In this document: one piece after another, positions 19,306 through 34,090 of the stretch
Layout: each line of letters opens with the position of its first letter
Numbering within the stretch: position 1 is the stretch's first letter
Source of the DNA: Mycobacterium decipiens
GTDB lineage: Bacteria; Actinomycetota; Actinomycetes; Mycobacteriales; Mycobacteriaceae
Assembly: GCF_963853665.1 (NCBI RefSeq)
Contig: NZ_OY970459.1
Span: 3,658,001 to 3,722,000, forward strand
DNA: 64,000 bases
Direction: 5' to 3'
Notes under the pieces: generated by a model
Told to the model about the DNA's origin: nothing
The model's input: the letters and a program-made list of their open reading frames with translations, nothing else
Databases searched by the model: none
Position numbers and translations under genes: made by a program

Positions 19306-19449
19306 ATGCTGAGTCCTCAGCTCCACCATCCCGATCTCGTCATCGACGCTGCCGAGGCACCCGTCGCGCGCGCCTGGATGGTTGGCGTGAGCACGTTGCT
19401 GATACGCCTTCTGAGGACTGAGTTCGAGGGAAACTCTTCTTGGCAATGA
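19306..19449 (+). CDS. Small ORF, 47 residues, with strong ribosome site
   Basis: An ATG-initiated ORF preceded by AAGGAG about ten bases upstream (19290-19295), in the 625-base gap between the catabolic operon and the biosynthetic operon. The peptide begins MLSPQLHHPDLV, has a short hydrophobic patch (WMVGVSTLLIRLL) and ends in NSSWQ. I do not recognise it. The good ribosome site argues for translation; a leader or regulatory peptide is possible. Upstream, 19094-19305 shows no other convincing feature. Confidence 0.4.
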   Translation: MLSPQLHHPDLVIDAAEAPVARAWMVGVSTLLIRLLRTEFEGNSSWQ

Positions 19450-19523
19450 CCTATACACCCTATGGGATATGGGTCAAGTGTGAAATTAACCGTTCCACAT
19501 CATATTAACGTCACAATGCGCGT

Positions 19524-19542
19524 CTATGGATACCCCGTATAG
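19524..19542. promoter_or_regulatory. Candidate operator upstream of the biosynthetic operon
   Basis: In the AT-richer stretch 19450-19596, nested inverted repeats CTAT...ATAG and ATAC-CCC-GTAT (19530-19540) lie about 60 bases upstream of the first ORF of the operon. The region must hold the operon promoter, but I could not fix a -10 box with confidence. Confidence 0.3.
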
Positions 19543-19596
19543 GTACATTGCTGTGCCCCGGCGGGAGGACAACAGCACTGGAGAAGAAAGAGTCCG

Positions 19597-31450: not shown

Positions 31451-32829
31451 CCGAAAACCGTTCAGCCAGTGCGGGTGTCGACGATTCAACCGATAGAGGC
31501 CGCTTGAGGCAGAGATTGAACTGGTTTGCGCAGCACGGGTTCCTCCGCGGGGCCGCGCGACTTGGAGTCCGGCTGGGCGACCTGCAGTCCCGCCTGCTCG
31601 CGGATCCCATGGTTAAGGCAAACCCGGCGCCATTTTGCGACGAATTGCGGGCCATCGGCCCCCTGGCATCGAGCTACGGCAGCCACCTCGCCGTTGACCA
31701 TGCGGTCGTCCATCAGCTGCTGCGGTCCGACGACTTCGAGGTGTTCTCGCTCGGATCGAACTTGCCGGCACAGGCGCCAATGCGCTGGCTAGAGCGGCGC
31801 ACTCGGGACGACGACCTAATCCATCCGCTGCTGCCGCCGTCATTGCTGGCAGTTGACCCGCCGGATCACACGCGCTATCGCAAGGCAGTGTCTTCGGTGT
31901 TCACGGCGAAAGCAGTGACCGCACTACACGATCGCATCAAAGAGACCGCGTCGGCGCTACTGGATCAGCTCACTGACCAGCCGAATGTCGTTGACATCAT
32001 CGCCTGCTACTGCTCGCAGCTCCCGGTCGCGGTCATCGGCGACATCTTGGGCGTGCCCGATCACGACCGCAGCCACATTCTGGAATACGGTGAGCTGGCG
32101 GCGCCCAGCTTGGATTTTGGGCTCTCATGGCGTCAGTACCAACAGATGCAGCGCGGGCTCAACGGACTGCACTTGTGGCTCACCGAGCACCTCGAGAAAT
32201 TGCGGTCCAACCCCGGCGACGATCTGATGAGTCGTCTGATCCAAGCCAGTGAAAACGGCCCCGCGCAAACACGTCTGGACGCGATGGAAGTGCGGACGAT
32301 CGCTGGGCTGGTGTTGGGCGCCGGTTTCGAAACGACGGTGAACCTGTTGGGCAACGGGATACAGATACTGTTGGACGCACCCGAACAGCGGGACGCGCTG
32401 AATCAGCGCCCGCAGCTCTGGCCCAACGCGGTAGAAGAGATCCTGCGGTTGGAGTCACCGATTCAGCTCACCGGGCGAATAGCCCGCAGGAACGTCGAGG
32501 TGGCGGGTGCGGCAGTCAAGCGAGGCCAGCTGGTGGTGCTCTATCTGGCGGCGGCCAACCGCGATCCGTCCGTGTTCGCCGATCCGCACCGCTTTGACAT
32601 CGCACGCGCCAACGCCAACCGGCATCTCACATTCGCCGCTGGTCGCCACTTCTGCCTGGGCGCCGCCCTTGCCCGCGCCGAAGGCGAAATCGGATTGAGA
32701 ATGTTCTTCGACCGCTTCCCCGATGCGCGTGCCGCAGGCTCAGGAAGTAGACGGGAGACCCGAACTCTGCGGGGTTGGTCACGGCTGCCGGTGCAGTTGG
32801 GTCCCGCACGGTCGCCGGCTATCCGATGA
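31447..32829 (+). CDS. Cytochrome P450
   Basis: A 460-residue bacterial P450. I-helix AGFETTVN, K-helix ExxR (EEILRLE), heme loop FAAGRHFCLGAALARAE with Cys403. It starts at ATG 31447 overlapping the MmpL stop. It has an N-terminal extension of about 40 residues compared with short CYPs. In the operon it is a likely tailoring oxidase for the lipid or amino part; electron partners are not encoded nearby. Confidence 0.92.
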   Translation: MTENRSASAGVDDSTDRGRLRQRLNWFAQHGFLRGAARLGVRLGDLQSRLLADPMVKANPAPFCDELRAIGPLASSYGSHLAVDHAVVHQLLRSDDFEVFSLGSNLPAQAPMRWLERRTRDDDLIHPLLPPSLLAVDPPDHTRYRKAVSSVFTAKAVTALHDRIKETASALLDQLTDQPNVVDIIACYCSQLPVAVIGDILGVPDHDRSHILEYGELAAPSLDFGLSWRQYQQMQRGLNGLHLWLTEHLEKLRSNPGDDLMSRLIQASENGPAQTRLDAMEVRTIAGLVLGAGFETTVNLLGNGIQILLDAPEQRDALNQRPQLWPNAVEEILRLESPIQLTGRIARRNVEVAGAAVKRGQLVVLYLAAANRDPSVFADPHRFDIARANANRHLTFAAGRHFCLGAALARAEGEIGLRMFFDRFPDARAAGSGSRRETRTLRGWSRLPVQLGPARSPAIR

Positions 32830-32963
32830 CGACAACTCACGACCACACGCTGTTGGCCAGGCCCGATTCCGCCGACGGCGCAAAGTCGCCGGTCCCCTCG
32901 GGCCGCACCGATGACAGGGATCGTCCGACGAAGGGAGCGATGGCATGGCGGGATTCCGGGTAG
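32826..32963 (+). CDS. 45-codon bridging mini-ORF
   Basis: Begins at the P450 stop (ATGA, 32826) and ends 19 bases inside the next gene (stop 32961-32963). The downstream ribosome site GAAGGGAGCG lies within it. Composition is polar (many Asp, Arg, Pro, Thr) with no recognisable motif. As with the 27754 mini-ORF, translational coupling is the likely function. Confidence 0.25.
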   Translation: MTTTHDHTLLARPDSADGAKSPVPSGRTDDRDRPTKGAMAWRDSG

Positions 32964-34090
32964 GTGTGCAGGACGGCTTGATCGCGGCACGACCGACGGC
33001 GAGCAGTCTCCTTCGGGCCAATTACCTCGGTGCTGTTAGCAACCGCGTCGACTCGTTCTGGGTTCCAGATCACCTCAACGGCTTGTTCCCCCGTTCGTTG
33101 TGGAAGCAGAAGTATTGCGGTGCAACAAAACTGCTACCCAGGCTCGATGCGTACATGGAGCCGTGGACGACGCTCGGCTACCTAGCCGCACGTAATCGGG
33201 TTGGCCGACTGCGCCTCGGCGTCAGCGTCACCGACACCGGTCGGCGTAATCCTGCCGTCACCGCACAGGCTGCCGCGACACTGCATCAGCTGAGTGGTGG
33301 ACGCGCCATACTGGGCATTGGAACTGGCGAACGCGAGGGCAACGAGCCCTATGGAGTGGACTGGTCAAAGCCGGTCGCGCGGTTCGAAGAAGCGATGGCC
33401 ACCATCCGGGCGCTGTGGGACTCTGGCGGAGAACTGGTCAACCGCGATTCGCCATTCTTCCCGTTGCGCAACGCCCTATTCGACCTCCCGCCTTACCGGG
33501 GCAAGTGGCCCGAGATCTGGATCGCTGCGCATGGCCCGCGAATGCTGCGGGCCACCGGGCGCTACGCCGACGCGTGGTATCCCGGGTTTCCACACCAGCC
33601 GAAGGAGTACGCGCAACGCTTGGAAGTCGTACGCTCCGCCGCATCCGACGCGGGCCGTGACCCCATGTCGATCACCCCCGCCCTGTGGCTGCCCGTTGTC
33701 ACAGGCCGCACCCGCGCCGACGTTGACGAGGCGCTCGACTCCCCAATGATCAAGATCGGCGGGCTGAACGCATCGGACGAAGTCTTTGCCCGGCACGGCG
33801 CCGAGCACCCATTGGGAGCGGGCTTCTCAGGAACGCAGGACTTGCTGCCACACGACATCGACGAACAAACAGCCCTGTCCTACCTCGACCAGATTCCGCC
33901 CACGCTGCTCCGGGAAATCGTGCTCAACGGCACCCCGGAAGAGGCCATCGAGCAAGCCGCGCAGTGGCGCGACTGCGGAGTGCGCTACATCGTCCTGGTT
34001 AACTTCAGTGCTTTTCAGCGGAGTCTGCGCAAAGGATTGGCATCGATTCAGCCGTTCAACAAGATCGTCCGCGACCTCAAGAAATTCTGA
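32945..34090 (+). CDS. F420-dependent LLM ketoreductase, phthiodiolone-ketoreductase-like
   Basis: A 381-residue LLM-class enzyme resembling, from memory and at the same length, M. tuberculosis Rv2951c, the F420-dependent ketoreductase that reduces phthiodiolone to phthiotriol on the way to phthiocerol lipids. Near-identical stretches include GRRNPAVTAQAAATLH, GRAILGIGTGEREGNEPYGV and WPEIWIAAHGPRMLRA. GAAGGGAG precedes ATG 32945. As last gene of the operon it suggests that the product carries a keto group on a long lipid, or that this enzyme works on another lipid. Confidence 0.85.
   Translation: MAGFRVGVQDGLIAARPTASSLLRANYLGAVSNRVDSFWVPDHLNGLFPRSLWKQKYCGATKLLPRLDAYMEPWTTLGYLAARNRVGRLRLGVSVTDTGRRNPAVTAQAAATLHQLSGGRAILGIGTGEREGNEPYGVDWSKPVARFEEAMATIRALWDSGGELVNRDSPFFPLRNALFDLPPYRGKWPEIWIAAHGPRMLRATGRYADAWYPGFPHQPKEYAQRLEVVRSAASDAGRDPMSITPALWLPVVTGRTRADVDEALDSPMIKIGGLNASDEVFARHGAEHPLGAGFSGTQDLLPHDIDEQTALSYLDQIPPTLLREIVLNGTPEEAIEQAAQWRDCGVRYIVLVNFSAFQRSLRKGLASIQPFNKIVRDLKKF

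Follow-up and report, generated by a model that had tools for sequence, protein, structure and literature searches.

A conserved five-gene cassette with a SerRS-like ligase and an AurF-like enzyme in a predicted N-oxygenated lipid operon of Mycobacterium decipiens

The DNA analysed here (the window, 64,000 nucleotides) covers positions 3658001-3722000 of the single-contig 5.30 Mb genome of Mycobacterium decipiens and contains a run of 13 genes, all on the + strand, from 19719 to 34090 (Table 1), which is almost certainly a biosynthetic operon. Its first five genes encode a ketosynthase-like (KSIII-like) acyltransferase, an AurF-like di-iron enzyme, a stand-alone carrier protein, a seryl-tRNA synthetase (SerRS)-like ligase and a thioester-reductase-like protein, and these five form a core found in the same arrangement across distant phyla. 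We give about an even chance to the reading, in outline, that the operon makes a lipid for export whose head is an N-oxygenated small amino acid, built by a trans-acting adenylation, thiolation and reduction (A-T-R) line. Eight of the 12 gene junctions overlap (seven by 4 bp, one by 11 bp) and the other four have gaps of 16, 58, 20 and 115 bp, in agreement with the almost gap-free, coupled run reported in a preliminary description of this sequence. That description set the start at 19306; the genes begin at 19719, and no gene was identified in 19306-19718, most of which is also present upstream of the first gene in two relatives. Pfam and NCBIfam domain searches of the cluster proteins (Pfam matches considered at E up to 1e-3) bore out the families it named, several of them below curated NCBIfam cut-offs, but the KSIII-like first gene had been omitted.

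Genome contigs were scanned once with the ligase family, and 71 loci were obtained; two peptide patterns were used, so the set favours this ligase subfamily. Genes in the loci were called with profiles built from the window genes and their matches, and in the residue alignments matches below 25 bits were dropped and one match was kept per locus. Core genes were counted in the 53 loci whose flanks reach 4.5 kb or more on either side of the ligase; 18 loci were set aside for short flanks. The five core genes stand in the same order and on the same strand in 45 of the 53, so that their association is not due to chance; the other eight (L039, L068 and L078-L083) are without one or more core genes. 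By record titles, the full-flank core loci belong to Actinomycetota, Acidobacteria including Vicinamibacteria, Omnitrophota, Proteobacteria, Melainabacteria/Obscuribacterales, Myxococcales and Bdellovibrionota, about seven phyla, in which single assignments may be wrong because many loci are metagenome bins. Occurring across phyla, the cassette is no mycobacterial speciality. Among the papers listed from the open-licence PMC literature, none appears by its title and the opening of its abstract to describe it, and provisionally the cassette is regarded as undescribed.

A lipid module often accompanies the core. In 37 of the 45 core loci a ferritin-like enzyme, an acyl carrier protein (ACP) and a fatty acid ligase occur together, with the methyltransferase in 33 and the phosphopantetheinyl transferase (PPTase) in 34 of these 37. 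The other eight hold none of the five module genes: five are from Catellatospora, one from a Hamadaea bin, one from Allorhizocola and one from a Streptosporangiaceae genome, and the four included in the tree of the five core proteins form one clade. In the core-only locus that was scanned for domains (L024, 11879-14070), a DUF3419 protein, which we take to be BtaA-like, and a GNAT protein occupy the place of the module after the core. The condensation-type acyltransferase noticed earlier is indeed present in the window, but it is a mycobacterial extra: a single-sequence search of the 71 loci found it in one, that of M. simulans. It is the KSIII-like acyltransferase that is conserved.

The ligase (310 aa) is best described as a class II synthetase core without a tRNA-binding domain and kin to Bll0957. 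A profile search matches the Bll0957 structure 3mey, and the Pfam score against PF00587 is 27.2 bits, just under the cut-off of 29.3, with no other domain. Against NF005479 it reaches 127 bits where the cut-off is 357, and so it is a relative of that family rather than a curated equivalog. Residues C127, R153, E155, E171 and C268 are invariant in all 68 rows with letters at these positions (72 rows, 4 gapped). C127, E171 and C268 align with the C, E and C of Bll0957, presumably the zinc ligands of that family, and the specificity of Bll0957 is assumed to be glycine-like. The class II core, the Cys/Glu/Cys positions and the adjacent carrier gene are shared with Bll0957-type ligases, whereas the window ligase lies far under the equivalog cut-off and sits in a redox and lipid operon. 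The adjacent carrier, with its conserved Ser, is the candidate partner; it was identified by position, conservation and Ser41 (63/63), and gave no Pfam match when scanned within the open reading frame (ORF) 21441-21869.

The AurF-like enzyme matches PF11583 with 116.1 bits (cut-off 29.6). Residues E84, E126, H129, E173, H200, E204 and H207, which include an HxxxExxH motif, are identical in 60 of 60 sequences, and we take these seven positions to be the AurF iron ligands. For the HxxxExxH stretch, the alignment to 3chh/2jcd reached no better than E 0.07, and a single-sequence search gave no PDB match up to E 0.1. Ligase, carrier and reductase as stand-alone A, T and R functions adjoining this enzyme fit an N-oxygenated, carrier-bound amino acid, as had been proposed. 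Two other mycobacteria hold an AurF/carrier/ligase trio (L093 and L094, the former in the order AurF-ligase-carrier), with which neither acyltransferase nor reductase was found in the 19.9 kb searched for each; retention of the trio without these two supports action of the AurF-like enzyme on a carrier-bound amino acid. In L093 (9164-12575), the small unit is followed by a leucine carboxyl methyltransferase-type gene and stands beside cobalamin genes. In L094 (5039-13656), the unit adjoins a P450, an FAD monooxygenase and a class III aminotransferase, possibly as another cluster for an N-oxidised product.

The first core protein has the FabH fold. Its residues C130, H274 and D279 are present in 59 of 59 sequences and align with C113, H296 and D301, given as the triad of ChlB3 in the available text of PMC9573744. 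Gln243 and His274 occupy the FabH His and Asn columns in all 59 sequences, and the Cys-His-Asn triad of condensing FabHs is thus absent. According to the same partial source, ChlB3 and CerJ transfer acyl groups to thiol or hydroxyl (PMC9573744). The fold and the Cys-His-Asp triad are shared with these two enzymes, and the His-x4-Asp spacing is that of ChlB3; the identity to ChlB3 is, however, 22% in a structural alignment, and the partner is an aminoacyl-carrier/AurF unit instead of an aromatic or sugar pathway.

The protein families, the conserved catalytic residues and the conserved order are observed in the sequences, and from them we infer each chemical step and the product. The SerRS-like ligase would adenylate a small amino acid, glycine-like by its kinship to Bll0957, and load it onto the stand-alone carrier, where the AurF-like enzyme would oxidise the tethered amine to a hydroxylamine or a higher state. 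After priming of the ACP by its fused PPTase, the fatty acid ligase would charge it, and the ferritin-like enzyme would oxidise either the chain or an intermediate formed later. Once acylated on Cys130, the KSIII-like acyltransferase would hand the acyl group to the tethered amino acid, at its N or O, and the reductase would release an aldehyde or alcohol. Decoration by the methyltransferase, the condensation-like acyltransferase and the P450 would follow, with export by MmpL. The suggestion of an exported lipid made earlier is consistent with the fatty acyl-AMP ligase (FAAL)-like enzyme and its ACP, the acyltransferase and the MmpL gene. It is possible, and proposed here tentatively, that these loci represent a class of N-O lipids, in which a trans-acting line derived from a tRNA synthetase was joined to a swappable lipid module and spread horizontally over several phyla, to become an MmpL-exported envelope lipid in a few mycobacteria.

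Within the genus, close copies of the ligase (at least 86%) were found in 3 of 148 sampled genomes, including that of the window, and seven more contain relatives of 32-34%. The AurF-like protein has three close and two distant copies in 396 genomes at 1e-30, the distant ones being those of the trios in L093 and L094. At 1e-60 the acyltransferase was detected in 396 Actinomycetota genomes only in the window's own, a search that scored five candidates per genome and may have missed copies. Relatives of the ligase that carry a species name include proteins of M. riyadhense and M. simulans, both at 87%, and one from an M. marinum record at 77%, followed by Streptomyces and others (~60%). The core tree places the window and M. 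simulans in a group with Micromonospora, with support of 0.90 and apart from Nocardia, which suggests that the cluster arrived by transfer rather than descent. The ligase has matches in 94 plasmid records, every one below 60% identity, and no plasmid origin was found.

The insertion site can be recognised by comparison with a genome that has no ligase match (G026). In that genome an ACAD-FadD block ends about 1 kb before a TetR-4HBT gene, with one DUF7676 gene between, and the window cluster sits between the same block and the same gene. The ACAD-FadD genes at 13044-19093 were therefore rejected as cluster members. The TetR-4HBT gene (37831-38877) encodes a TetR DNA-binding domain fused to a 4HBT thioesterase domain and is common in the genus; it was rejected as the cluster regulator, since matches at 1e-60 occur in 108 of the 148 genus genomes, and in 47 of the 148, cluster carriers included (all three), a match extends over nearly the full length with at least 72% identity. 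The whole operon is carried by two further genomes, G064 and G023 (M. simulans), with 76-96% protein identity.

Several observations weigh against the proposed route. AurF relatives include enzymes with other chemistry. The four core-only loci that are in the tree fall in one clade, so the all-or-none pattern of the module may reflect one loss, and since no FAAL or ACP is near the core in those eight loci, the acyl donor must differ there. In many non-actinobacterial loci the fatty acid ligase matches the window FadD better than the window FAAL-like ligase. For the acyltransferase, ChlB3 and condensing FabHs come out level in the fold search, and most ChlB3 relatives, CerJ excepted, catalyse Claisen condensation as far as the accessible part of the report goes (PMC9573744). 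Moreover, ChlB3 shuttles acyl groups between carriers, so that the donor could be the amino acid and not the fatty acid. Finally, in both G064 and G023 the fatty acid ligase and condensation-like genes are separated by a short-chain dehydrogenase (SDR) gene, of which the window retains the two ends; without this reductase, its product may be altered or not made.

One alternative, which we consider rather unlikely, is a pathway decaying in this organism, with no product or a changed one. The 802-bp deletion took most of the SDR gene, and upstream of the operon in G064 (locus L084) lie a P450 and a BTAD-type regulator of 1022 aa that also has AAA and TPR domains; neither has a counterpart in the window between FadD and the first gene. 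The regulator stretch is also present in M. simulans, but the comparison does not distinguish its loss here from a gain there. Also against decay, all 13 operon genes have open reading frames, and their protein identity to the relatives is that given above.

The remaining alternatives concern the chemistry. The ferritin-like protein (194 aa) has a weak Pfam match, to AurF alone (22.4 bits, cut-off 29.6); in an AlphaFold model (pLDDT 91.6) it forms a helical bundle, for which di-iron proteins of the ferritin-like type give alignments, and of its ligand positions E18 is found in 49 of 49 sequences and the five others in 48 of 49, one fragment being gapped. The second di-iron enzyme of the preliminary description is thereby borne out. 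Against the route proposed here, this enzyme might deformylate or oxidise the aldehyde after the reductase, which would shorten the carbon part of the amino acid and yield a hydroxamate of the N-methyl type or a comparable product; we regard this as quite unlikely.

A tRNA-free azoxy route is improbable. The aminoacyl-carrier would replace seryl-tRNA, a hydroxylamine would receive the aminoacyl group through the KSIII-like enzyme, and the part of the azoxy synthase VlmB would fall to the ferritin-like enzyme. The valanimycin and azodyrecin pathways would resemble the present cluster in seryl-tRNA-synthetase-type chemistry, N-oxygenation, a ferritin-fold di-iron enzyme and, for azodyrecins, a lipid chain, but they depend on tRNA through VlmA, on VlmH as flavin N-hydroxylase and on VlmO as membrane N-N enzyme, of which VlmA and VlmO were not used as queries here. 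ADO and MiaE score slightly higher for the ferritin-like protein, tied or better; the Pfam results of the cluster include no flavin monooxygenase, and there is no fatty amine source such as an aminotransferase. An azodyrecin-type cluster, as far as it is set out in the part of PMC9379638 at hand, was considered and set aside on the missing flavin monooxygenase. The ICMT-like methyltransferase was also rejected as a VlmO, for which the available excerpt names D51, H82, H110 and D114 (PMC11705231); the residue spacings differ by eye, and an ICMT/PEMT domain is present. Nocuolin A was rejected because its nonribosomal peptide synthetase (NRPS) A domain is predicted for aromatic amino acids and ring-dioxygenase-like genes accompany it, according to the accessible text of PMC5333925.

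There is likewise only a slim chance of a fragin/valdiazen-type pathway leading to a lipid diazeniumdiolate. In the ham system the AurF homologue HamC oxidises valine tethered to HamD, and HamF is predicted to be a condensation-type protein, with acylation of that type predicted for fragin, in the available portion of PMC11659414. The A, T and R activities, the AurF homologue acting on a thiolation unit and the mycobacterial condensation-type protein all correspond. In the window, however, the loader is of the class II tRNA-synthetase type, carrier and reductase are separate genes instead of one HamD-type A-T-R protein, the conserved acyltransferase belongs to another family, and a FAAL-like ligase with ACP and a second di-iron enzyme are added. 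Haem oxygenase, cupin, polyketide cyclase and aminotransferase families, and with them the families predicted for HamA, HamB, HamE and HamG, are absent from the Pfam scan of the cluster genes, in which the Ham sequences themselves were not compared, and this argues that it is not a fragin (ham) cluster. The fragin analogy drawn originally thus holds for the logic of tethered oxidation and fails for membership, and the earlier interpretation as a whole is partly supported.

Very improbable, finally, is that the AurF-like enzyme reaches a nitroacyl-carrier whose acidic alpha carbon is joined through a C-C bond by the KSIII-like enzyme without decarboxylation: AurF-type enzymes do reach nitro products, and the FabH His/Asn pair, which has a role in decarboxylation, is absent, but we know of no precedent. 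The Claisen chemistry of ChlB3 relatives would favour it, while the triad is that of ChlB3 and CerJ, acyl transferases to thiol or hydroxyl in the part of the source available (PMC9573744).

Table 1. Features of the 13-gene operon and the gene remnant within it (window coordinates)
Feature	Position	Strand	Evidence
KSIII-like acyltransferase, core gene 1	19719..20687	+	Cys130-His274-Asp279
AurF-like di-iron enzyme, core gene 2	20684..21601	+	PF11583 2.2e-33; ligands 60/60
Stand-alone carrier protein, core gene 3	21591..21869	+	Ser41 63/63; conserved beside ligase; without Pfam match
SerRS-like amino acid:[carrier protein] ligase, core gene 4	21866..22798	+	NF005479 7.5e-37, below cut-off; profile match Bll0957 3e-41
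Thioester-reductase-like SDR, core gene 5	22795..23886	+	PF07993 2.8e-29, above cut-off; TIGR01746 1.2e-24, below cut-off
Ferritin-like di-iron enzyme, lipid module	23903..24487	+	194 aa; helical-bundle model; six conserved ligand positions
PPTase-ACP fusion, lipid module	24484..25434	+	PF01648 1e-10 and PF00550 7.3e-9; ACP Ser 48/48
ICMT/PEMT-like membrane methyltransferase	25431..26027	+	PF04191 5.9e-7; PF04140 2.4e-5; NF040696 1.1e-15, below cut-off
Fatty acyl-AMP ligase-like enzyme, lipid module	26024..27757	+	PF00501 7.1e-42; NF006624 3.8e-85, below cut-off; scanned as ORF 25532-27757
SDR gene remnant (gene kept in two relatives)	27758..27815	+	both ends align to L084; 802 bases of L084 gone at 27769/27770
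Condensation/PapA-like acyltransferase, mycobacterial extra	27816..29183	+	PF00668 1.3e-14; 3/148 genus genomes, the cluster carriers
MMPL-family exporter (predicted)	29204..31450	+	PF03176 7.8e-74
Cytochrome P450	31447..32829	+	PF00067 8.2e-26
F420-dependent luciferase-like oxidoreductase, probable member	32945..34090	+	PF00296 1.9e-53; ~95% identical and adjoins P450 in both relatives

For the fatty acyl-AMP ligase-like protein, FAAL models rank best, all below their cut-offs, the best being NF006624 with 286 bits against 600. The family of the F420-dependent protein is common: at 1e-120 it is found in 59 of the 148 Mycobacterium genomes, and the membership of this gene therefore rests on adjacency; a second, partial copy lies elsewhere in the genome (G000:C1:3270734-3271375, residues 89-302, 91% identical). 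Beyond it, a PIN-domain protein (34409-34807), also found in G064, is directly preceded by a short ORF (34166-34408), and the two are perhaps a toxin-antitoxin pair. Between cluster and backbone, a DUF222/HNH protein (35133-36383, - strand), presumably of the kind found in mycobacterial 13E12-type repeats, has a 93% identical copy in G064 and no match in the fetched G023 stretch.

If the proposed route is true, N-O bonds on lipids would be formed in a new arrangement, in which a stand-alone loader resembling a tRNA synthetase supplies an AurF-type enzyme and a ketosynthase-like acyltransferase. Since the core is conserved across distant phyla, relatives in Streptomyces or Catellatospora can serve for its study. 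For some mycobacteria, the locus represents a rare lipid locus, whose insertion site is clear and in which a gene loss can be defined.

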